Shown here in pieces: positions 31,431-42,708 of a stretch of 43,936 bases of DNA (positions are counted from its first letter, which is position 1; each line of letters opens with the position of its first letter). The position numbers were made by a program, and so were the translations under genes. Where the stretch lies: contig JAIETV010000013.1 in the NCBI GenBank assembly GCA_019744895.1, positions 1 through 43,936 of the forward strand, written 5' to 3'. This DNA is from Candidatus Babeliaceae bacterium. Its GTDB lineage: Bacteria; Babelota; Babeliae; Babelales; Babelaceae. The notes under the pieces are model-generated. The model did not search any database and was not told the DNA's origin. It was given only the letters and a program-made list of their open reading frames with translations.

Positions 31431-32801
31431 ATGCCAATATCGCCTGTTGCAACATCAGGTGGAAAAAGAGAATTTGCCGACGCTGAAAGACTTTTAGGTA
31501 AGTCATTACCCTGTAACTTAGAAGCTGAGCGTGCTGTTCTTGGCTCTATATTATTTAATGATGAGCACCTTCCTGCTGTAAGCGAACTTATTTCCGCTGA
31601 AGATTTCTATTCCCCTGCGCATAAGCTTATTTTTACTGCCTGTCTTACTATCGTTCAAAGCCAAAGGCGTATTGATTTAGTAACTTTACAGGATGAGTTG
31701 GAAAAGCATGGTAAGCTCGCTGAATGTGGGGGGCTTATGTATCTAGTTTCCCTTCAGGAGGACATTCCTCTTGTTGGCTTGGTGACTCAGCATGCTAAGA
31801 TTATAAAAGATAAGTCTGTTTTACGCAGTCTTATACATTCTGCAACCCAAATTATTGGGCAGTGTTATATGCAGAGTGATAAGGGTATTGAGGCGATGCT
31901 TGATGAAGCAGAAAAGACTATTTTTAAAATCTCTGCGCAACGCTCTCCTTCAAATTTTGTGCAACTTACCATTTGGTTGAATAAAACTTTTCAGCAGCTT
32001 TCACAGCTTAAAGGGCATGGTAAAGGAATTACGGGGATATCTTCCGGTTATAAAATTCTTGATGAGATGACGTCGGGTTTTCAAAAGGGCGACCTTATTG
32101 TTTTGGCCGCTCGACCTTCTATGGGGAAGACGGCCCTAGCTCTCAGTTTGGCGCGTAATGCTTGTCAGCAGGGTGCCGTTGGTTTCTTTTCTCTAGAAAT
32201 GGGGGCAGAGCAGCTCACTTTGCGGTTACTATCGGCTGAGTCTCGTATTGCGCATCATGCAATTCGTAATGCCTCTATTACTTCTGATGAGTGGATGGAA
32301 CTCGCCCATGTCGCGGGCCAACTTGCTGAGATGAAGTTATTTATAGATGATACTGCAATGCAGAGTATCATGGATATTCGTGCAAAGGCCCGAAAGCTCA
32401 AAGCGGAGCATAATTTACAGTTTCTGGTGATCGATTATCTTCAACTTATTCATTCAAGTAAAGCTCATGAAAACAGGCATCAGGAAGTTTCTGAAATTTC
32501 ACGCTCTTTAAAGGCTCTTGCAAAAGAATTAGGTATACCTATAGTAGCACTTTCTCAGCTTTCGCGCGCGGTTGATAGTCGTATGGATAAGCGGCCTATG
32601 CTTTCTGACTTGCGTGAATCTGGCGCAATCGAGCAGGATGCTGATCTTATTATGTTTTTGTATCGTGATATTGTGTACAATAGTGACACAGAAGATCCGC
32701 AACTGGCAGAGCTTATTATTGGAAAGCAACGTAACGGACCCACTGGTACGGTGCATTTACACTTTCAAAATGAGCTTACGTTGTTTGAAGATAAAGAGTA
32801 G
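31431..32801 (+). CDS. dnaB: replicative DNA helicase DnaB
   Basis: The 456-residue protein is a standard DnaB hexameric 5'-3' helicase, which unwinds the chromosome at the replication fork. The N-terminal helical domain begins with NLEAERAVLGSIL (about 29-41). The RecA-like motor has Walker A ARPSMGKT (227-234), a Walker B-like FLVIDYLQL, and late LSDLRESGAIEQDAD and KQRNGPTG segments. No intein interrupts the motor. It follows rplI after 7 bp and precedes ruvC by 24 bp. The ribosome site is weak, so translation may depend on rplI. Confidence 0.97.
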   Translation: MPISPVATSGGKREFADAERLLGKSLPCNLEAERAVLGSILFNDEHLPAVSELISAEDFYSPAHKLIFTACLTIVQSQRRIDLVTLQDELEKHGKLAECGGLMYLVSLQEDIPLVGLVTQHAKIIKDKSVLRSLIHSATQIIGQCYMQSDKGIEAMLDEAEKTIFKISAQRSPSNFVQLTIWLNKTFQQLSQLKGHGKGITGISSGYKILDEMTSGFQKGDLIVLAARPSMGKTALALSLARNACQQGAVGFFSLEMGAEQLTLRLLSAESRIAHHAIRNASITSDEWMELAHVAGQLAEMKLFIDDTAMQSIMDIRAKARKLKAEHNLQFLVIDYLQLIHSSKAHENRHQEVSEISRSLKALAKELGIPIVALSQLSRAVDSRMDKRPMLSDLRESGAIEQDADLIMFLYRDIVYNSDTEDPQLAELIIGKQRNGPTGTVHLHFQNELTLFEDKE

Positions 32802-32825
32802 CTTTTAAAAAATGAGAGGGAGTAG

Positions 32826-33308
32826 ATGGTAGTATTGGGTATTGACCCTGGAACGCGCGTTTCCGGGTATGTCATATTTAAAAAAGAGAATCGTCAGGTG
32901 CTTCTTTTAGATTATGGTACGCTTTCCTTGCCTGCTAGCCAAGTCCTTCCTGACCGGGTAGCCAATTTTTTTTCCTTTTTTAAAAAGAAGATCGAAGATT
33001 TTTCTGTGTCTGATATCGCTATTGAAACTCCATTTTTGGGTAAAAATGCCTCTAATTATCTGAAATTAGGGTATTTACGTGGAGCTGTCTACATTCTTAC
33101 CTCACACTACAACCTTATGTTGCATGAGTATTCACCCCGTGAGGTTAAACTATCTGTTACAGGGTTTGGTGGTGCTGATAAAGAACAAGTTGCGCGTATG
33201 ATCATTCGCCTTTTTCCCAGTTTAGCAATGCCTGCTCAATATGATCTTACAGATGCTTTCGGTGTAGGTATCTGTTGTATCTGGTCTACAAAAACACTAC
33301 TCAGATGA
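32826..33308 (+). CDS. ruvC: Holliday junction resolvase RuvC
   Basis: The 160-residue product has the four acidic catalytic residues of RuvC near the E. coli spacing: Asp7 (GIDPGTR), Glu67 (AIETPF), Asp140 and Asp143 (YDLTDAFGVG). RuvC cuts Holliday junctions symmetrically during recombination, working with the RuvAB motor. RuvA and RuvB are not in the window. The ribosome site GGGAG lies close upstream. The segment GKNASNYLKLGYLRGAV is typical of the family. Confidence 0.93.
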   Translation: MVVLGIDPGTRVSGYVIFKKENRQVLLLDYGTLSLPASQVLPDRVANFFSFFKKKIEDFSVSDIAIETPFLGKNASNYLKLGYLRGAVYILTSHYNLMLHEYSPREVKLSVTGFGGADKEQVARMIIRLFPSLAMPAQYDLTDAFGVGICCIWSTKTLLR

Positions 33309-33376
33309 GCTGAGCTATTTTTTAATTTCAAACTATTGATTTATTATCTTTTTATCTTTTATAATTAAAGTAGATG

Positions 33377-33424
33377 TTGACATTTATGTGTCAAATGAAC
33401 CAATATAAAATGGATATACCATTT
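33377..33424 (+). promoter_or_regulatory. two inverted repeats before the lysine-rich protein gene
   Basis: The first repeat is TTGACA and TGTCAA with a 6-base spacer (33377-33394); its left arm is also a perfect -35 hexamer. The second is AAATGG and CCATTT with a 5-base spacer (33408-33424), directly before the AAGGAG ribosome site. A -10 could be TATAAA at 33404-33409, although its 21-bp spacing from TTGACA is long. An operator arrangement is likely. Confidence 0.5.
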
Positions 33425-33437
33425 ATAAGGAGAAATC

Positions 33438-33566
33438 ATGGTAAAGAAAGTTACCAAGAAAACTGCTTCTGCGCCTAAGCGTCGTAAAGCGGTTAAGTCT
33501 ACCAAAGCCAAAGCTGCTAAACGCAGCGCTAAAAAATCTAAAAAAAGTATTTTTAGCTGGTTTTAA
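33438..33566 (+). CDS. 42-residue lysine-rich basic protein, histone-H1-like tail
   Basis: This short gene starts with ATG after a perfect AAGGAG ribosome site (five-base spacing). It encodes 42 residues with 14 lysines and 3 arginines and no acidic residue. The bulk is alanine/serine/lysine low-complexity sequence like the tails of chlamydial histone-like proteins or H1, ending in the hydrophobic SIFSWF. Nucleic-acid binding or nucleoid compaction is a reasonable guess from composition alone. An independent transcription unit is indicated by two inverted repeats upstream and a strong terminator-like hairpin downstream. Confidence 0.7.
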   Translation: MVKKVTKKTASAPKRRKAVKSTKAKAAKRSAKKSKKSIFSWF

Positions 33567-33578
33567 TTCTTAAGAATT

Positions 33579-33618
33579 ACGTACGCCCAGTCAACAAGTA
33601 CAGGGCGTACGTTTAGTT
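33579..33618 (+). terminator. hairpin after the lysine-rich protein gene
   Basis: ACGTACGCCC (33579-33588) and GGGCGTACGT (33603-33612) form a perfect 10-bp stem with a 14-base loop, starting 12 bases after the stop codon. The following TTTAGTT is a weak U-tract, so it may act as a terminator or as an mRNA-stabilising 3' hairpin. Confidence 0.6.
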
Positions 33619-33841
33619 GCTAAAAACATCTCTCTCTGCTTCTGATAATTACTACTCTCTTATTTCGCTTCAATCAAAAAGCCCCGCAATAAAAATTTTA
33701 TCGCCCTCCCCCTCCTTACATGGGCCTCCCGGCGCCTTGCGTTGCTGAGCGCAACGCCCGTGCTTGGGTGCGCCATGAATCCGGGATCGCGCCTAAGCTT
33801 GGAATGAAAAATGAAGGACAATGAAGGACGATGAAAAAACG

Positions 33842-33883
33842 AATTAAAATAAACCATCGCATCGGTTTGCACCAATGCGATGG
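33842..33883 (-). terminator. Rho-independent terminator for recF
   Basis: CCATCGCAT (33854-33862) and ATGCGATGG (33875-33883) form a perfect 9-bp stem. It extends by GGT and ACC inside, after one mismatch, to a TTGC loop. On the minus strand it is followed by TTTATTTTAATTC, a good U-tract. It lies about 190 bp after the recF stop. Confidence 0.65.
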
Positions 33884-33900
33884 AAAAAAGGAGAGTAGTA

Positions 33901-33945
33901 ATGAAGCCTAGTTATAGTCACCCTGGTGAGGGTTGCCTGGGTTAG
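33901..33945 (+). CDS. possible 14-codon leader peptide
   Basis: The ATG is preceded by AAAAAAGGAG, an excellent ribosome site with eight-base spacing, and the frame MKPSYSHPGEGCLG stops at 33943-33945. A small hairpin (33920-33933) lies inside. No downstream plus-strand gene follows that it could regulate, so it may be a remnant or chance. Confidence 0.2.
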   Translation: MKPSYSHPGEGCLG

Positions 33946-33958
33946 TGCCCGGAGCTCT

Positions 33959-34000
33959 ATGAAATTTATAATTTTTTTTAATAAAATGTTATTAATATAG
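33959..34000 (+). CDS. possible 13-codon hydrophobic peptide
   Basis: GGAG lies six bases before the ATG. The product MKFIIFFNKMLLI is wholly hydrophobic apart from two lysines and an asparagine, like a small membrane peptide. At this length it could be chance in AT-rich sequence. Confidence 0.15.
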   Translation: MKFIIFFNKMLLI

Positions 34001-34074
34001 TATATATCTTAACAGTATTTGTGTCTTTGTCAACTCTTTTAAAAAAGAAAAAGCCTATATCTTCGATGTCTATT

Positions 34075-35217
34075 TCAGGCTGAAATTTCTGGGTTATTTG
34101 AAAGTTTATTATTTGGAATAATAGCCACCAGATCGTTAGAATCAAGATTTATGAGATTAAAATTTCCATTATTTTGGCATAACGAGGACAAAAGATGATT
34201 AGGTTGAGGCGTGGTTATAATAAGTTGTACCTTGAGTTCAAATAATAGTGCTAAGAGCTTACAAACACGTGTTTCATCAAAATCAGTAATAAAATCATCT
34301 ATAAGAAAGGTAATAAGGTTATCAGACGATCTTTTTAATAAAAGGCGAGCTTGAGCTATTTTTAAGAGCATAATAGCGAGTTTTTGTTGGCCGCGAGAAG
34401 CAAAATTACGCGAATTTCGCTCGTATACCAAAAACTCAATATCATCAAGATGGGGACCATAAAGGGTGCGCTGCGCTCTCAATTCATCTTCAAGGAGATG
34501 CTTTTGATCGTCAGGCGTTATTAAACTGCGCTTTTCTAAATAGTTTATGGTTAAAAAGCTTTGTGTAGCTGCAGTGTCGTATAATTTTGTTATTTCAGCA
34601 ATTTGTAAGGATAATTGTGTCAAATACTCTTTTCTATAACGAACTATTTGCTGTGAGACGTTCATGAGTTGGTCTGTCCAAATATCGTACTGGTCCTGAT
34701 GAAATGGGTGATCTTGTAGTAACTTTGTTCTCTGGATAAGAATTTTACGTAAAGATCGAAGGAGGTTGTGGTAATGGGGCTCATGAACAGATATTGCATT
34801 ATCAATAAATAATCTACGTGTTTCTGGATAACCCTTAATACAAAGAAGATCATCTTCTATAAAGGTTACTACCTTGTATATTTTCATTAATTCATCATAA
34901 GTATTAATAGATGCACCGTTAACTTTTATAATACGTTTTTTGCCGGCAACACCTATAAATAGGGTATCAGTAGCGGTAGCTATCTGAATAGTAAACCCTG
35001 CAGATTCTTGCGGATTATCATAGTATAGTTCTGCAGGTACATGCGTCCTAAAAGAACGCAAGTGACTGCCATAATGAAGCGCTTCAAGCAGGGACGTTTT
35101 ACCCGAGCCATTGCTTCCCTGAACTATAGTAACTCCTGGTTTATCCCCATGAGTAATATCAAATAGCGCTTGCTTAAAGCAACGAAAATTTTTTAATGAG
35201 ATACGTGTTATAGGCAT
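34075..35217 (-). CDS. recF: DNA replication and repair protein RecF
   Basis: The 380-residue SMC-like ATPase has Walker A GSNGSGKT (34-41), the RecF segment LRSFRTHVP just after it, the signature-like SRGQQKLAIMLLKIAQ and a Walker B FLIDDFITDFD. RecF, with RecO and RecR, loads RecA at single-strand gaps. RecJ and RuvC, which work in the same pathway, are also encoded in this window. The gene starts 5 bp after the dnaN stop, the usual dnaN-recF order. A terminator lies about 190 bp downstream. Confidence 0.93.
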   Translation of the reverse strand: MPITRISLKNFRCFKQALFDITHGDKPGVTIVQGSNGSGKTSLLEALHYGSHLRSFRTHVPAELYYDNPQESAGFTIQIATATDTLFIGVAGKKRIIKVNGASINTYDELMKIYKVVTFIEDDLLCIKGYPETRRLFIDNAISVHEPHYHNLLRSLRKILIQRTKLLQDHPFHQDQYDIWTDQLMNVSQQIVRYRKEYLTQLSLQIAEITKLYDTAATQSFLTINYLEKRSLITPDDQKHLLEDELRAQRTLYGPHLDDIEFLVYERNSRNFASRGQQKLAIMLLKIAQARLLLKRSSDNLITFLIDDFITDFDETRVCKLLALLFELKVQLIITTPQPNHLLSSLCQNNGNFNLINLDSNDLVAIIPNNKLSNNPEISA

Positions 35218-35222
35218 ACTAC

Positions 35223-36347
35223 TTAATTTTGTGATTGAGCTGCTGAAACGGGCATTACAAGATACAATCTTTTTATCTTCTCAGAAGCGGCCTCGAATAT
35301 AATAGGTTTACTTGCTGAGTGGAGATAAAATTTTATATTCTCCTCAAAGCTCTGCACGCCACTAAGAAGATAGGGTGCATAAAACCGTACATCAATTTCA
35401 TCATGGGTATACTCATACAGAGGAACGCGGTCATTGAGCTTGCCTACTTCCTTATTATTCATGACAACATGTACGGTGTTATGTGAAAATTTAAATTGAG
35501 TTGCTATAAATTGCCCTGAAAGAAGGCATGTTGATCTTTTAAGAGTCTTGAGAAAGTGTGCACGATCAAGCTTTGCGGCATGGAAGCCATCTTTTTGTAA
35601 AATAGGCTGATATTTAGGGAATGTGTCAACCAAGAGTTTTGAAAAGAAATTAAAATGTTGGCCAGAAAAAACAAGCTGTGAAGAGCATGTACCTAAAAAA
35701 AGAGCCGTATCTTGATACGACTCAAGTATTTTTTTGAGTTCAAAAACTGCGCGGCGTGGCAAAAGCCATGACTGTGCTGTTTCTAGCGTAAATTCAGTAG
35801 AACTTACTTGCGCCAAACTATGACCATCTGTTGCCGTCATTTTAAATGTTTCTGGTGATACTTCTATAAAAAGCCCATTAAGCGCTGGGTTTGAGTTGTT
35901 TTGAGGTACCAAAAAGCTGACACTTTCTAACATTGATTTTAATGTTTCACTTTCAACCTGCATAAGATTTTCTATACGTTCTGGCAATGGTGGGAATTCG
36001 CTTGCCTCTTTAATATTTAACGTTAAATGTACATCATCACAGGTAATATTGAGCTGATTCTCCCGTAATTCTAGGGTAATAGTATTATTTAATTCTTTAA
36101 CGATATCAAAAATACGTTTTCCCGGAACAAGAAATTGCTCTGCTTGACGAAAATCACTTTCAATTATAGGGCAACTTGCCTGTAAGCTTATTTCTAAATC
36201 GGTACTCTTTAAAATTAATTCTTTAGCGCCGATATGAAACATAATACAACTGGTTGCATCAAGTGTTGTTCTGCGCGTGCAAATAGGTTGCATAGCAGTT
36301 AAAACAGATAACAGTTCTTTTTGTTCAATAATAAATTTTTTTTCCAT
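35223..36347 (-). CDS. dnaN: DNA polymerase III beta subunit (sliding clamp)
   Basis: The 374-residue product has the three-domain clamp plan. Family segments include the N-terminal LLSVLTAMQPICTRR, LNGLFIEVSPETFKMTATDGHSLA in domain II, and a C-terminal YLVMPV ending. The ring-shaped dimer tethers the polymerase to DNA and recruits repair proteins. recF follows after 5 bp. dnaA is not upstream; instead there is a divergent outer-membrane protein gene. The position next to recF is conserved, but dnaA-dnaN linkage is lost. Confidence 0.95.
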   Translation of the reverse strand: MEKKFIIEQKELLSVLTAMQPICTRRTTLDATSCIMFHIGAKELILKSTDLEISLQASCPIIESDFRQAEQFLVPGKRIFDIVKELNNTITLELRENQLNITCDDVHLTLNIKEASEFPPLPERIENLMQVESETLKSMLESVSFLVPQNNSNPALNGLFIEVSPETFKMTATDGHSLAQVSSTEFTLETAQSWLLPRRAVFELKKILESYQDTALFLGTCSSQLVFSGQHFNFFSKLLVDTFPKYQPILQKDGFHAAKLDRAHFLKTLKRSTCLLSGQFIATQFKFSHNTVHVVMNNKEVGKLNDRVPLYEYTHDEIDVRFYAPYLLSGVQSFEENIKFYLHSASKPIIFEAASEKIKRLYLVMPVSAAQSQN

Positions 36348-36384
36348 GAATCTCTATAATAGGTAGTATGTAAAAGTAAGTAAC

Positions 36385-36398
36385 TATACTATAGTATA
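36385..36398. promoter_or_regulatory. palindromic -10 region between dnaN and the barrel protein gene
   Basis: TATACTATAGTATA is a perfect 14-bp palindrome, so both strands read TATACT. On the minus strand it is preceded by TATGG and lies 46 bases before dnaN. On the plus strand it lies about 105 bases before the next gene. It can be a bidirectional promoter core, an operator, or both. Confidence 0.5.
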
Positions 36399-36495
36399 CC
36401 ATAGCACAACTCTTTTGACGCTCAAAAAATTATATTGACTTTGGAAAATATAAAAAACTATCTTCAGTAATGATTTTTAAGAAGGGAAAATATCT

Positions 36496-37104
36496 ATGAA
36501 AAATAAAAAAAAAGTTTATCTAGTTTTAAGCTTGTGGTTACTTAGTTCATGCTTTAATGTACAGACAAAAAAAGATGTAATACTAGAATTTAAAGCCGCA
36601 TATTTAAGGCCAATCGATTGTGTTTTTAAAAATATTTATGGCGGCGGCGCGCTCTTTGGCCCAGAGCTTACGTGGAATATTTTTAGAAGCGTTTATGGCT
36701 TTGCAAGCTATAATTATTTTACAAAAAATGGTAAATCTATCGGTTTGAACACACCTACAAAAGCAACTATGCAAGTCCTTGCCGTCGGTTTAAAATTTAT
36801 GGGGTGCGTTGCTCATCATGCACGTCTTTATGGAGGTCTTGGTTTTGAACCGATCTACCTTTACACAAAAAACTGTTCACCGTACGTTGTACAGGAAACA
36901 AAAAAATGGGGTTTTGGCGGCATTGCAAAATTTGGTGCCTATATTGATTTACCACATAATGTGGTACTTGATTTATTTGCAGATTATTCATTTGTTAAAG
37001 TTTCTCCTGGTTGCTGCACAAACCCTAATCTGTATGTTCAACAAACTAAAGCGGATGTAAGTGGCTTTATCTTTGGAGCAGGAGTTGGTTATAATTTTAA
37101 TTAA
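36496..37104 (+). CDS. exported outer-membrane beta-barrel protein candidate
   Basis: The 202-residue protein has a signal peptide (about residues 1-24; a lipoprotein-type cysteine in LSSCF is also possible). It then has alternating hydrophobic beta-strand segments such as LYGGLGFEPIYLYTK, NVVLDLFADYSFVKV and the final VSGFIFGAGVGYNFN. A C-terminal strand ending in an aromatic plus one residue is typical of outer-membrane barrels. The size fits an eight-stranded barrel of the OmpA/OmpW type. It suggests a Gram-negative envelope. The ribosome site GAAGGG precedes the ATG. The YVTN propeller gene follows 13 bp downstream. Confidence 0.65.
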   Translation: MKNKKKVYLVLSLWLLSSCFNVQTKKDVILEFKAAYLRPIDCVFKNIYGGGALFGPELTWNIFRSVYGFASYNYFTKNGKSIGLNTPTKATMQVLAVGLKFMGCVAHHARLYGGLGFEPIYLYTKNCSPYVVQETKKWGFGGIAKFGAYIDLPHNVVLDLFADYSFVKVSPGCCTNPNLYVQQTKADVSGFIFGAGVGYNFN

Positions 37105-37117
37105 AAGTGCTATATAT

Positions 37118-39397
37118 ATGCATATAAAAAAATATTTTTTTTCTTTTGCAATCATCATTATTTTTCACGAGTGTCAGGCTCAATCAAGCAATTCTATAGT
37201 TGCAACTATAGAATCATTTGATGTACCCATAGGTATAACAAAAAATCCCTTACAAGATTTAGTGTACGTAACAAATTTAATCGGCAACACCATAAGCATT
37301 ATTAGAGGTGGAACAAATACGACGCAAGTGATTGTGAATGATTTATATAACCCGTTAGGCATAGCAATAACACCTGATGGAAAATATGCTTATGTTGCTA
37401 ATAGTGGTAACAATACGGTAGCGGTTATTGATCTAGTAACGAATGAGATTATAACAAGTATATCGGGTTTTAATAAACCATATGCTCTTGCAATAACGCC
37501 TGATGGTAAATACGCGTATGTCACTAATAATCCTGCGTTTACCTTTAGGCATTGTGATGCTACGTATCGAGATTCTGTTACTGGTAATGTGCTTGTTATC
37601 GATATAGGCACTAACACTCTTATTGATACTCCTGATCTAGATTCTGGCTTTGATAATCCTACAGGGATAGCAATAACACCTGACGGCAGGTATGCCTATG
37701 TGGCCAATTCAACAGGTACTAGCGTGAGTATTATAGAGTTAGAAACTAATACTATTTATGATTCAATTTCAGGATTTGATGGGCCTAATGCTCTAGCCAT
37801 AACACCCGATGGTAGGTATGCCTATGTGGCCAATCTAGGAAATGGGAGTGTTAATGTTATTGACATAGAAAATTCTATCGTCCTTGATACTCCTGATTTA
37901 GATTCTAGCGTGGGTAATCCTTCAAATATCGCGATAACTCCCAACGGTGAATATGCCTACGTAACAAACGATACGAGTGTGACGGTAATAGCTACAACTA
38001 ATAACTCTATTGTAACAGCACCAGACTTACAAGAAAATTTTCTTTCTGCACGAGGTATTGTTATTTCTGCTGACGGTCAGTTTGCGTATGTAGCAAATGC
38101 ATATGGAAATAGCGTTAGTATTATAAACGTTGCCGAGAATCAATTAGTTACACCAGGTATAACCCCAGGTTTTTATTCTCCTAGAGGTATAGCCATAACC
38201 CCTAATGGTTACTATGGCTACGTTACTAATGCTAGTGGTAAAAGTATAAGTGTAATAGAGCTTGTCAGTAATACTTTGTTGAGTGTCCCTAGTCTCAACA
38301 GAGAGAATTCAGGCCTTGATTCTCCGGCTGCTATTGCTATAACATCTGATGGCAGGTATGCCTATGTAACAAGCATATCCTTTACGTCTTTTGTCTACGT
38401 AATAAATTTAGAAACTAATATGGTTCTTGATACTCCCGATTTGCAGGTTAACTTTGGTATCCCCGTGAATATAGCGATAACCCCTGACAATAAATACGTA
38501 TATATACCATCTCTTTCCTATGATAGCGTAAAAGTTATAGAAACAGAAAGTAATACCATACTAAATACTCCGAATCTAGAATTGGCATTTAGTGACCCTT
38601 ATTCTTTAGCAATAACGCCTGATGGTAAGTATGTCTATGTAACCAATTCCAATGCTAACAGTGTGAGTGTAATTGAGATTGAGACTAACACTGTGCTTGA
38701 TACGCCTGGTCTTGCTGTGGGTTTTGATGCCCCCAAAGGCGTAGCGATAACTCCTGATGGAAGGTACGCTTATGTAACAAATGCCGCTGGTAACAGTGTG
38801 AGTGCGATTGATATTAAGACTAACAACGTGCTTGATACACCTGGTCTTGCTATGGGCTTTGATTCTCCCAATGCTTTAGCGATAACCCCTGATGGAAAAT
38901 ATGCTTATGTAACAAATTACACGGGCAACAGCGTAACGGTTGTAGATATAACCACTAATACCGTACTTGATACACCTGGTTTAGATTCAGGTTTTAATTT
39001 GCCTACAGGACTAGCAATAACTCCTGATGGAAGGTATGTCTATGTAACGAATTTAAGTGGCAATAGTGTAACCGTTATAGGAGCTACTGCTACCGGGGTG
39101 CAAAGCCCTGAAAATGCTAAGGTATGTACGAAAAAGAATATTTTTATTGGTCAAATAGATACATATAATAGTGTTACATGGTCAGCGCCTACAACAGGAA
39201 TACCACCTTCTTCTTATCGCATTTATCGTGATGCTTCTTTAACAAATCTCTTAGCCGTCGTTCCGGCTTCAGGCATTTTGCAGTATGAAGAGCATAATGT
39301 TAAACCTTATCACAGCAGACTGTATTATATTGTTTCTGCAGATGCTTTTGGTGGCCTTTCTTCAGCTGCTGTTACGCAATTACGTACATGCTCTTAG
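37118..39397 (+). CDS. exported YVTN beta-propeller protein with C-terminal fibronectin-type-III-like domain
   Basis: The start at 37118 gives a signal peptide (MHIKKYFFSFAIIIIF, cleavage near CQA). A longer frame from 37061 would run into the previous gene. The 759-residue product has 14 repeats of about 42-50 residues with the core AITPDGKYAYVTN and NSVSVIDxxTNTVLDTP. Fourteen blades equal two seven-bladed propellers, an inference from the count. The last 100 residues look like a fibronectin type III domain (TYNSVTWSAP, SYRIYRDASLTN, LYYIVSADAFGG). YVTN proteins are surface layer or binding proteins in many microbes; an adhesin or receptor role is likely but unproven. The 3' end overlaps proS by 4 bp on the other strand. 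Confidence 0.85.
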   Translation: MHIKKYFFSFAIIIIFHECQAQSSNSIVATIESFDVPIGITKNPLQDLVYVTNLIGNTISIIRGGTNTTQVIVNDLYNPLGIAITPDGKYAYVANSGNNTVAVIDLVTNEIITSISGFNKPYALAITPDGKYAYVTNNPAFTFRHCDATYRDSVTGNVLVIDIGTNTLIDTPDLDSGFDNPTGIAITPDGRYAYVANSTGTSVSIIELETNTIYDSISGFDGPNALAITPDGRYAYVANLGNGSVNVIDIENSIVLDTPDLDSSVGNPSNIAITPNGEYAYVTNDTSVTVIATTNNSIVTAPDLQENFLSARGIVISADGQFAYVANAYGNSVSIINVAENQLVTPGITPGFYSPRGIAITPNGYYGYVTNASGKSISVIELVSNTLLSVPSLNRENSGLDSPAAIAITSDGRYAYVTSISFTSFVYVINLETNMVLDTPDLQVNFGIPVNIAITPDNKYVYIPSLSYDSVKVIETESNTILNTPNLELAFSDPYSLAITPDGKYVYVTNSNANSVSVIEIETNTVLDTPGLAVGFDAPKGVAITPDGRYAYVTNAAGNSVSAIDIKTNNVLDTPGLAMGFDSPNALAITPDGKYAYVTNYTGNSVTVVDITTNTVLDTPGLDSGFNLPTGLAITPDGRYVYVTNLSGNSVTVIGATATGVQSPENAKVCTKKNIFIGQIDTYNSVTWSAPTTGIPPSSYRIYRDASLTNLLAVVPASGILQYEEHNVKPYHSRLYYIVSADAFGGLSSAAVTQLRTCS

Positions 39398-40869
39398 TAA
39401 GATTTTGCTACCATTACATCACTTGGGCTTTCAAGATCACAATTAAAGCAATGTAAAAATTGTTTTTCTTCGATCAAGCATCTGGTTGTTGCTTGATACT
39501 CTTTGAGCGCTGCTTCACAAATAGGCGAGCGGCACCACCCTGTTTGATAAAAGCCGCCTTTATTTTTAAGATCGTCAGCAAAATCAATAAGCTTTGCAAC
39601 TTTATGCCATTGGCGCGCTCGTCGGGCGCGTGCACGTTCAAAAAGCATAGTTTGTATACTCTGAAGTTCTTTTTCAATAACTTCAAGTAAATCTTGCCAT
39701 GTAACCGTTTGTTTTTCGCCCGTTAAGCGGTTAGTTATAACTACTGACTGTTGGATAATATCTCGTGGGCCGATCTCGATCCGTAACGGAACACCTTTAA
39801 GTTCCCATTTATAAAACTTAGAACCGGGTGTTGTATGCGTATCTGCATCAATAGTAACCCTAAACTCGTTACCTAAAGTACCTTGTATGGCTAGAGCGGC
39901 TTTTTCGATTTGGTCGCTTGGCATATTTTTATTGAAAATAGGAATAATAATAATCTGTATCGGCGCAACGCGCGGTGGCATAATTAATCCTTTTTGGTCA
40001 CCGTGCGTCATAATGAGCGCTCCAATAAGACGGGTTGTTGCACCCCAGCTTGTAAGGTAAGGGTATGCCTCCCCGCCATTTCGATCTTGATATTTTATAC
40101 CGAATGCATGTGCAAATTGTTGCGAAATCATATGAGAAGTCCCCATTTGCAAAGCTTTGCCATCTTGCATAAGCCCTTCAAATGTCATTGTAATATCAGC
40201 GCCGGCAAATTTTTCGGATTCGGATTTTTTTCCAGCAACAACAGGAATGGCAAGGTAATTTTCCACTAGATCTATATACTCAAGTAACATAGTCTGTACC
40301 TCTAAAAGGGCTTCCTTTTCAGTCTCATGAGCAGTATGACCTTCTTGCCACCAAAATTCGGTAGTACGTAGAAAAGGGCGTGACCGCATCTCCCAACGAA
40401 CTACATTTGCCCACTGATTAATCTTTAAGGGTAAATCGCGCCATGAGCGTATCCATTGTGCAAACATATAATGAATAATAGTTTCTGATGTTGGACGAAC
40501 AACTAAAGGTTCCTCGAGTTTTTTGCCGCCTGCATGAGTAACGATAGCAAGTTCAGGGGCGAATCCTTCAATATGTTCTGCCTCTTTTTTAAAGAATGAC
40601 TCAGGTATAAGAAGCGGAAATTGGGCGTTCTGATGGCCAGTATCTTTAATTTTTTTATCGAGTATTTTCTTTATCTCTTCCCACAATGCGTATCCATAAG
40701 GTCGAATAACAATACACCCACGGACTGGGGCTTGGTCTGCAAGTTCAGCTTGAAAAACAACTTCATGATACCATTCAGAAAATGAACTGTTAATATCCGG
40801 CAATGCAGCATGTTTTTTCTGTTCATGTTGAGAACGTTCATGCGTATTGATTTTCTTCTCTGCACTCAT
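39394..40869 (-). CDS. proS: prolyl-tRNA synthetase, archaeal/eukaryote-like short type
   Basis: The 491-residue class II synthetase charges tRNA(Pro). Motif 1-2 sequences are VRPTSETIIHYMF and RWEMRSRPFLRTTEFWWQEGHTAH, with motif 3 in EIGPRDI. The long editing insertion of the E. coli-type enzyme is absent. The C-terminal extension ends with a tyrosine, as in the archaeal-like (type 3) ProRS found in some bacteria. A cysteine set near the C-terminus (WCRSPICE, FLHCFNC) may hold zinc. The ribosome site AAGG precedes the ATG. The convergent overlap with the propeller gene is 4 bp. Confidence 0.95.
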   Translation of the reverse strand: MSAEKKINTHERSQHEQKKHAALPDINSSFSEWYHEVVFQAELADQAPVRGCIVIRPYGYALWEEIKKILDKKIKDTGHQNAQFPLLIPESFFKKEAEHIEGFAPELAIVTHAGGKKLEEPLVVRPTSETIIHYMFAQWIRSWRDLPLKINQWANVVRWEMRSRPFLRTTEFWWQEGHTAHETEKEALLEVQTMLLEYIDLVENYLAIPVVAGKKSESEKFAGADITMTFEGLMQDGKALQMGTSHMISQQFAHAFGIKYQDRNGGEAYPYLTSWGATTRLIGALIMTHGDQKGLIMPPRVAPIQIIIIPIFNKNMPSDQIEKAALAIQGTLGNEFRVTIDADTHTTPGSKFYKWELKGVPLRIEIGPRDIIQQSVVITNRLTGEKQTVTWQDLLEVIEKELQSIQTMLFERARARRARQWHKVAKLIDFADDLKNKGGFYQTGWCRSPICEAALKEYQATTRCLIEEKQFLHCFNCDLESPSDVMVAKSY

Positions 40870-41013: not shown

Positions 41014-41442
41014 ATGCGACGCGTTATGTGGAAAAAAAAGGGGGCTTGTTTGAAAAAATTTTTAGTGAATATGGTTTGCCTAATAACTTCTTTTTCTGGC
41101 TTTGCTCAGAATTCAGCAGAAAAATTGACAATTGCGTTAAATAAAGCTTATGAAGAGATAAGGCGTTTAGAAATAAAAAATGATGACCTCAAGCATCTTT
41201 CAGAATATTTTGAATTTTATGCCTCATGGTATGCACCTGTTACTCCAGCTACAAAAGAATTATACGACTCGCTATCAAAACAAGCGTTAGATTTAATAGA
41301 AAAAATTAAAAACATAGCAAAGCCCTTAGAGCGTAACCATAACAGAAGACTCATGGGTGCAAGTAGACTTTCTGACGAAGGCAAATTTTTTTATAAAAAA
41401 ATTATCGCCGCCCTAAGATGCAAGCTGAAAAAGCAAAAATAA
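41014..41442 (+). CDS. small exported helical protein, unknown function
   Basis: The 142-residue product has a basic N-terminus and a signal segment (FLVNMVCLITSFSGFA). An alternative TTG start at 41050, with AAGGGGG upstream, would give a conventional signal peptide beginning MKKFLVNMVC. The ATG at 41014 has GAAAGGGAA further upstream. The mature part is helical and charged (EKLTIALNKAYEEIRRLEIKN), with no recognised domain. A structured intergenic element begins seven bases after its stop. Confidence 0.55.
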   Translation: MRRVMWKKKGACLKKFLVNMVCLITSFSGFAQNSAEKLTIALNKAYEEIRRLEIKNDDLKHLSEYFEFYASWYAPVTPATKELYDSLSKQALDLIEKIKNIAKPLERNHNRRLMGASRLSDEGKFFYKKIIAALRCKLKKQK

Positions 41443-41529: not shown

Positions 41530-41666
41530 TAATAGATAGCAGGGGCGGCACGGGCAGGCGAGAATCGAAAATTACTTGTTTTTTCTGAAAATCGGAAAAA
41601 AAATAAAAAAATCTATAAAAACCTCAAATAATTTGATTCACAGGTTTTATTCTTTACTTAAGAATG

Positions 41667-41702
41667 CGCTAATGTGTATAATGCTACTTATACACATTAG
41701 CG
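41667..41702 (+). other. 36-bp dif-like recombination site overlapping the recombinase promoter
   Basis: CGCTAATGTGTATAA (41667-41681) and TTATACACATTAGCG (41688-41702) are perfect 15-bp inverted arms around the 6-bp spacer TGCTAC. The inner part, ATAA-N6-TTAT, equals that of bacterial dif sites, where XerC/D cut at the borders of a 6-bp spacer. The recombinase ATG lies 40 bp downstream. A perfect -10, TATAAT (41677-41682), with TTTACT 18 bp upstream (41653-41658), lies inside the site, so binding would block transcription of the recombinase gene. There is no U-tract, so a terminator is unlikely. Confidence 0.6.
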
Positions 41703-41742
41703 ATCAAAAAAGTCGATTTAGAGCATAAAAAGGAGTAGTTTG

Positions 41743-42708
41743 ATGAAAAGCACACAGGTCACCTTGAAGAGTACACGGCAATTGGGTTTTGAGCAGGCAC
41801 TTCAATTAAAAAAGGAAGCAGTTTGGAAAAACTTAGGGGAAATAACCGTCAAGCAAGCGGTAACAGAATGGTTGCGCACATTAAAAAGCATAACAGCAAA
41901 AAATTACATAAGCGGCATTAAGCAACTCAGCAAATTAAAACTTATTGACCTGAAATTAACGTTACAAATGTTTGCCCTTATCAACCATGATGCCGTAATA
42001 GATCAAATAAAAACATTACCTGCATTTTCTGAATGTACAAAGCAGGCGCGTGCGGCTTGTTATATATCGTTCACCCGATTTTTAAGCCGCCGAACACAAG
42101 GTATTATACCTAAAGCTACCCCAAGCCGTGAAGGAGTTTCAAAAACTTTTTATAGAACGCGAGACAAAATATCAACAGAAGCTATGACGCGCGCACAATG
42201 GACAGATTTTCTGGAACAGCTTAGTAGTATTAATGAGCGAGATTGTTTAATCGCAAAAGTTATCTTGCAAGGCGGTAAAAGATTATCAGAAGTCTTGAGT
42301 CTGACTACAGATAAAATAGATTGGGCAAAACGGGAGATAACCTTTAAACAATCAAAAACCAAAGGCTATGAAAAAGAAACAGTGATAACCTATCCTCAGC
42401 ACTTGCTCGAAGAACTTAAAGCCTATATTGCTGATCGTCAAGGTTTAGTTTTTGTAACACGAAACTGCAGGCCAATCATGCCTAATCAGCTTGCAATGAC
42501 ATTTGAAAAAGCAGGAATTTTATCAGACGTTCCATTTAAGGTAACACCGCATGTTTTGCGCGCGTCAGCTATAACTTTTTTAAAGTTATCAGGATATTCA
42601 GATAGCGACATTATGAAAATTTCTGGGCATGCATCATCTGCGATGGTTAATGCTTATGACAAAAGCGACCGAGCCTTAAATATAAGCAAAAAGGTCTCTT
42701 TAGTATAA
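41743..42708 (+). CDS. tyrosine recombinase/integrase, chlamydial-plasmid-like
   Basis: The 321-residue protein is a complete tyrosine recombinase. It has an N-terminal DNA-binding helical domain (about 35-120) and a catalytic domain with Arg180 (GGKRLSEVLSL), a lysine at 205 or 207 in the beta-hairpin, His270 and Arg273 (TPHVLRAS), His296 (SGHAS) and nucleophile Tyr305. Stretches such as QARAACYISFTRFL, RDKI(S)TE and TPHVLRASA recall, from memory, the pGP7/pGP8 integrases of Chlamydia plasmids. The ATG at 41743 is seven bases after AAGGAG. The dif-like repeat is directly upstream. It could be a Xer-type enzyme resolving chromosome dimers, or the integrase of a plasmid-derived element. The active site looks intact. 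Confidence 0.9.
   Translation: MKSTQVTLKSTRQLGFEQALQLKKEAVWKNLGEITVKQAVTEWLRTLKSITAKNYISGIKQLSKLKLIDLKLTLQMFALINHDAVIDQIKTLPAFSECTKQARAACYISFTRFLSRRTQGIIPKATPSREGVSKTFYRTRDKISTEAMTRAQWTDFLEQLSSINERDCLIAKVILQGGKRLSEVLSLTTDKIDWAKREITFKQSKTKGYEKETVITYPQHLLEELKAYIADRQGLVFVTRNCRPIMPNQLAMTFEKAGILSDVPFKVTPHVLRASAITFLKLSGYSDSDIMKISGHASSAMVNAYDKSDRALNISKKVSLV

Follow-up and report, generated by a model that had tools for sequence, protein, structure and literature searches.

The palindrome located upstream of a tyrosine recombinase gene in a contig of 43,936 nucleotides from a Candidatus Babeliaceae bacterium (the window, that is, the entire stretch of DNA analyzed here) is probably the core site of this recombinase, which belongs to the family of the chlamydial Pgp7/8 integrases. 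Enzyme and site would have been acquired by horizontal transfer and would form a dif-like resolution module with a single recombinase at the replication terminus. The relevant features are listed in Table 1, and the evidence and the alternatives are described below.

Table 1. Features of the recombinase locus and its surroundings (coordinates are those of the window)
Feature	Position	Strand	Basis or remark
proS	39394..40869	-	in other families of the order, directly followed by the second Xer gene
Small hypothetical protein	41014..41442	+	43% identical to the proS-adjacent ORF of G002; conserved synteny marker
Promoter-like TTTACT-18-TATAAT, putative, with the -10 element inside the palindrome	41653..41682	+	10/12 match
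Left arm CGCTAATGTGTATAA, presumed recombinase half-site	41667..41681	+	inner 9 bp TGTGTATAA kept in relatives
Central 6 bp TGCTAC, asymmetric, presumed strand-exchange region	41682..41687	+	identical in L018, L019, L093 and L094
Right arm TTATACACATTAGCG, presumed recombinase half-site	41688..41702	+	covaries with the left arm across relatives
Tyrosine recombinase, chlamydial Pgp7/8 family, 321 aa	41743..42708	+	profile matches, tree, catalytic residues
Repeat-rich gene at the contig end	43302..43874	+	similar to the ORF that ends contig C14 (ymdB-rny); basis of the inferred join

The palindrome

Positions 41667-41702 read as a perfect inverted repeat of the form 15-6-15, in which the arms are complementary at 15 of 15 positions around an ATAA-N6-TTAT core. 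The recombinase ATG at 41743 lies 40 bp past the end of the palindrome, with AAGGAG at 41730-41735, and the TATAAT at 41677-41682 spans the junction between left arm and spacer. The first-pass annotation had reported the perfect arms, the dif-like inner bases, the distance to the ATG and a TATAAT within the site; the first three are exact on re-reading, and the TATAAT is present as an overlap with left arm and spacer.

Chance does not account for the palindrome. No other short-spaced palindrome in the window is as long, the next perfect one having 12-bp arms, and when the window was replaced by 40 Markov copies, the longest perfect arms spanned 8-13 bp, compared with the 15 bp observed; the ATAA-N6-TTAT core by itself is not rare (2 occurrences in the window vs 3.6 expected). 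In the genome (884 kb in 23 contigs, ~95% complete), the palindrome is single-copy, even when 3 mismatches are allowed. A search for additional copies of the arm had been proposed in the annotation, scattered copies with U-tracts being indicative of terminators, and no such copies were found.

Family placement of the recombinase

The recombinase matches the Phage_integrase profile, and the catalytic residues R180, K205, H270, R273, H296 and Y305 are all present and invariant among 10 aligned family members. The scores against the XerC equivalog (39.8 bits, cutoff 335), the XerD equivalog (25.7 bits, cutoff 330) and XerS (23.3 bits, cutoff 267) are all far below the respective cutoffs, so that the protein does not qualify as an XerS ortholog. 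A phmmer search against the PDB returned a single weak match, the XerC-like 4a8e, and an AlphaFold model built from four sequences has a pLDDT of 46, too low for use.

The nearest relative of the recombinase is a protein from a congener (76-77% identity), and the closest database matches outside the genus are chlamydial, with 54-56% identity to proteins from Parachlamydiaceae MAGs and 41-55% to plasmid integrases of Criblamydia, Simkania, Waddlia and Rhabdochlamydia. Within the order, any match at all was detected in 13 of 85 genomes, and most of these are weak. In a tree of 74 rows, in which the bootstrap is not fully settled and some branches are long, the proteins from the window and the congener are nested in a 63-row chlamydial Pgp7/8 clade (96/97), separate from the Xer of the same genome. 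The Pgp7/8 proteins are core integrases of chlamydial plasmids, of phage origin, that occur either once or as two duplicated copies (Koestlbacher et al. 2021, PMC7846284). The gene in the window shares its contig with dnaB, recF, dnaN and proS and is a chromosomal relative of Pgp7/8 rather than a plasmid integrase. In viral contigs, no relative of the recombinase protein was found, and the arm pattern yielded 40 single exact 15-mer matches, none of them reported with both arms. The genome of the window also encodes a second integrase, of the phage type (L004; G000:C15, ~13.3-13.9 kb), that is interrupted by a stop codon.

Recurrence and conservation of the site

A site with the shared geometry TGTnTATAA-N6-TTATAnACA, often with TGCTAC as the spacer, is present upstream of the family recombinase on plasmids of Waddlia, Criblamydia and Rhabdochlamydia, one site per plasmid. 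The scan upstream of relatives identified TGTGTATAA-TGCTAC-TTATACACA in the congener, TGTGTATAA-TGCTAC-TTATAAACA in a Parachlamydiaceae MAG, TGTTTATAA-TGCTAG-TTATAAACA on Waddlia pWc, TGTTTATAA-AGCCGC-TTATAAACA on the Criblamydia plasmid and the TGTCTATAA/TGTCCATAA forms on two Rhabdochlamydia plasmids. Plasmids of 7.5 kb, assigned to the Chlamydia type from size and gene order (PMC7259575), carry a different but equally palindromic sequence, ACCTGATTA-TGGAAA-TAATCAGGT, between the pgp8-like gene and a divergent DnaB-like helicase gene; a blastn search of the plasmid collection with this site region found nothing. On Simkania pSn and several other family members, no recognizable site was found.

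In 28 of 60 upstream regions, a 6-bp center is flanked by perfect arms of 9 bp or more, compared with 0.21 expected, for sites that were found partly by their palindromy. Because the upstream scan had itself looked for palindromes, a scan with the motif alone (TGTNNATAA-N6-TTATNNACA) was run across 234 Chlamydiota genomes, and it located 28 places vs 6 for the reversed pattern. Sixteen of the 28 precede a family recombinase gene, 15 of them by no more than 1.2 kb and one by 2.6 kb; only 44 of the 234 genomes carry such a gene. In the 85 genomes of the window's order, the same scan gave 5 places, including the two recombinase-linked sites, vs 2 controls.

Among 19 distinct ATAA-class sites, the inner ATAA/TTAT is invariant, and each of the remaining 7 arm pairs shows compensatory changes, with 96% of the cells paired vs 23-57% in slid registers, a statistic computed on sites partly found through their palindromy. 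The window and the congener have diverged to saturation at synonymous sites (pS 0.77) and can no longer be aligned in the intergenic flanks, and yet their 24-bp core including the spacer is identical; the recombinase itself is constrained (pN 0.16). The TGCTAC spacer is identical across phyla and has the same orientation relative to the gene in most relatives. The comparison across genomes suggested in the first-pass annotation thus revealed a site conserved beside orthologous recombinases, and this linkage supports its proposal of a dif/Xer-like module with one recombinase.

Several other features of these sites deserve mention. The Rhabdochlamydia sites contain the common spacer in reverse orientation, and on one Chlamydia-type plasmid (L113, as compared with L106 and L114), the asymmetric TGGAAA spacer is inverted relative to the gene. 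An AT-rich palindrome, AAAAAGTA-TTAATA-TACTTTTT, located 115-180 bp upstream of the pgp7-like integrase paralog on Chlamydia-type plasmids (L100-L104, L130), possibly represents a second class of sites. In one genome (G170, L197:3092-4224), the site is paired with a zeta-toxin gene and no recombinase is nearby; relatives have a similar gene just upstream of the recombinase.

Location at the replication terminus

In the window, dnaB, recF, dnaN and proS are clustered at 31431-40869, and the first-pass annotation took the proximity of dnaN as a sign that the locus is close to the origin. This argument turned out to be wrong because, in the family to which the window belongs, dnaN and proS are located at the GC-skew terminus. 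The cumulative GC skew of G003, a relative assembled as a single contig, is lowest near 630 kb and highest near 76-100 kb, the strands of rpoB, rpoC, EF-Tu, L2 and 16S are all as expected for an origin near 630 kb, and dnaN, recF and proS, at 60-73 kb (G003:C1), are near the terminus. The skew switch lies 1.4 kb from proS in G006 and 16 kb from it in G004, and in a member of another family (G017), it is at ~120 kb, beside proS-xer at 117-119.6 kb.

The plus strand of the window has an excess of G along almost its entire 44 kb, and the other side of the recombinase in the congener, towards ymdB-rny, is C-rich over 60 kb. When contigs are joined as inferred (C6-C14 in G000, the genome of the window, which have a repeat gene and 36 bp of sequence in common; C42-C47 in G001), the distance between the GC-skew maximum and the site is 2.4 kb in G000 and 4.6 kb in G001. 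The site is thus at the terminus of chromosome replication, its fine placement depending on these two inferred joins; the GC-skew plot proposed in the annotation puts the terminus, not the origin, within a few kb of the site in two species.

Each of the three congeners has a contig end close to the locus. In G002, the recombinase gene has the opposite orientation with respect to proS and the conserved neighbor ORF (L151:4-480 vs 41743-42708 in the window), and the stretch upstream of it, where the site would lie, is past the contig end. In a congener, tandem ORFs containing many C2H2 zinc fingers (Pfam zf-C2H2, 1e-39; L018:246-1796, L152:2294-2989) adjoin the recombinase and proS; these domains are eukaryote-like and are found here in a small bacterial genome. 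The Peptidase_S74 intramolecular chaperone domain is usually found in phage tail fibers; in the window, it is the terminal domain of an 1834-aa repeat protein (1332-6836), and an S74-like ORF is located beside proS in a congener.

The Xer complement

Most other families of the order encode two Xer-type genes, one of which directly follows proS in G016, G017, G018 and G020. The family of the window mostly has one Xer gene at the cutoff used, with a weak proS-adjacent match in G005, suggesting that this family has, for the most part and at this cutoff, lost the second Xer gene. The genome of the window keeps a canonical Xer (L002). A canonical-looking dif is present in G019 (TGAACGCATAATATATATTATGTAAACT), and there is a weaker one near the skew switch in G017. 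A scan for canonical dif around the terminus in the window's family yielded noise-level scores only, with no candidate standing out.

Proposed function and alternatives

In the mechanism that we consider the most plausible, each arm would be bound by one recombinase monomer, two sites would pair to form a tetramer, and strand cleavage and exchange would take place at the borders of the 6-bp spacer, with the asymmetry of the spacer setting the direction, as in dif/Xer. A dimer of a circle that has one site would contain two copies of it, and recombination between these would produce two monomers; on chlamydial plasmids, the module would keep the plasmids monomeric. The presence of one copy per circle, with no flanking partner, favors resolution over integration. 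The genus represented by the window would have gained the enzyme and the site together by horizontal transfer and retained both at the terminus, where they may serve to resolve chromosome dimers, either by themselves or alongside the remaining canonical Xer.

A more specific version of this scenario, in which the chlamydial plasmid recombinase and its site became the chromosomal dimer-resolution (dif/Xer) system of the genus, beside proS and near the former place of the lost second Xer, is tentative, and we rate its chances somewhat below even. The terminus location and the loss of the second Xer favor such a role, whereas the retention of the canonical Xer, and the existence of sister genera that lack the module and live with that Xer, argue against it.

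Among the alternatives, the palindrome could be the attachment site of an integrated plasmid or another mobile element, that is, one end of a circle that integrated at a host site. The recombinase family consists of plasmid integrases (PMC7846284), dif sites at termini are favored targets of integrative elements (PMC9765430), and the orientation of the gene relative to proS differs in G002. Integration, however, leaves two copies flanking the element, and the genome has one; furthermore, no other plasmid gene adjoins the site, and chlamydial plasmids likewise have one site per plasmid. We therefore regard this origin as unlikely, and the att core of an integrated plasmid envisaged in the first-pass annotation is unsupported. 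To about the same degree, we doubt that the palindrome is solely an operator to which a regulator, perhaps the recombinase itself, binds to repress transcription, with no recombination involved. The TATAAT in the left arm, the -35-like hexamer 18 bp upstream of it and the usual location of the site within 260 bp upstream of the gene are all compatible with an operator, and a putative self-repression via the site is possible. The gap between site and gene, however, is variable, usually about 4 to 260 bp (40 bp in the window vs ~256 bp in the congener) and reaching 1.1-2.6 kb in some lineages, with a zeta-toxin gene intervening in at least some of these; the Criblamydia site is located inside another annotated ORF. 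The variable distance shows that site and recombinase promoter are not coupled, so that a recombination site fits better than a fixed operator. The spacer, whose conservation an operator would not require, is identical across phyla, which points the same way.

Still less probable is the possibility that the canonical Xer (L002) uses the palindrome as its chromosomal dif and that the neighboring plasmid-type recombinase is incidental. The terminus position, the 6-bp spacer and the ATAA-N6-TTAT core would all be expected of such a site, but the arms match those of the chlamydial plasmid sites rather than canonical dif, other families (G019, G017) have a canonical-looking dif, and the same site accompanies the Pgp7/8 gene in chlamydiae. 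An intrinsic terminator or another RNA hairpin is hardly credible despite the strong stem (-20.6 kcal/mol, z -6.1), given that there is no U-tract on either strand, no terminator was called, the spacer is conserved and the site is found upstream of the gene across lineages.

Relation to known recombination systems

The core site proposed here shares with XerCD/dif the 6-bp center with the ATAA/TTAT inner bases, but XerCD/dif employs two recombinases and two unlike arms, whereas the arms in the window are identical. Dimer resolution by the single recombinases XerH and XerS is FtsK-dependent. The locus in the window has two hallmarks of the single-recombinase dif/Xer systems, with the site next to the gene and, under the inferred joins, one site per chromosome at the terminus. 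In XerH/difH and XerS/difSL, as in the window, a single recombinase is genetically linked to its site; the arms of difH and difSL are imperfect, unlike the perfect arms in the window, and the center is 11 bp in difSL and 6-10 bp in difH (PMC5357621).

The closest published system in logic is XerL/dif of Legionellales, with which the window shares one recombinase, long uninterrupted arms (inverted repeats of 10 and 12 bp in XerL-type dif) and the terminus position. XerL/dif of Legionella and the plasmid-borne XerL of Coxiella also link plasmid and chromosome: the Coxiella plasmid has a site next to xerL, and the chromosome reportedly depends on the plasmid-borne enzyme, whereas in Legionella, dif is more than 400 kb away from xerL (PMC9765430), in contrast to the adjoining site and gene in the window. 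With the Pgp7/Pgp8 chlamydial plasmid integrases (PMC7846284), the window has in common the recombinase clade and the site geometry beside the gene; it differs in that the module is chromosomal, at the terminus, outside Chlamydiota and devoid of other plasmid genes.

The enzyme family is known, and the site beside it apparently has not been described previously among the papers found, none of which names a target site of Pgp7/Pgp8 or links pgp7/pgp8 with a palindrome or site-specific recombination. Because several chlamydial families and a member of another phylum maintain a precise 24-36 bp site together with the enzyme, the target function of Pgp7/Pgp8 is directly testable. If the role at the terminus is real, chromosome segregation would here make use of a captured plasmid resolution system, much as the Coxiella chromosome reportedly depends on a plasmid-borne XerL.
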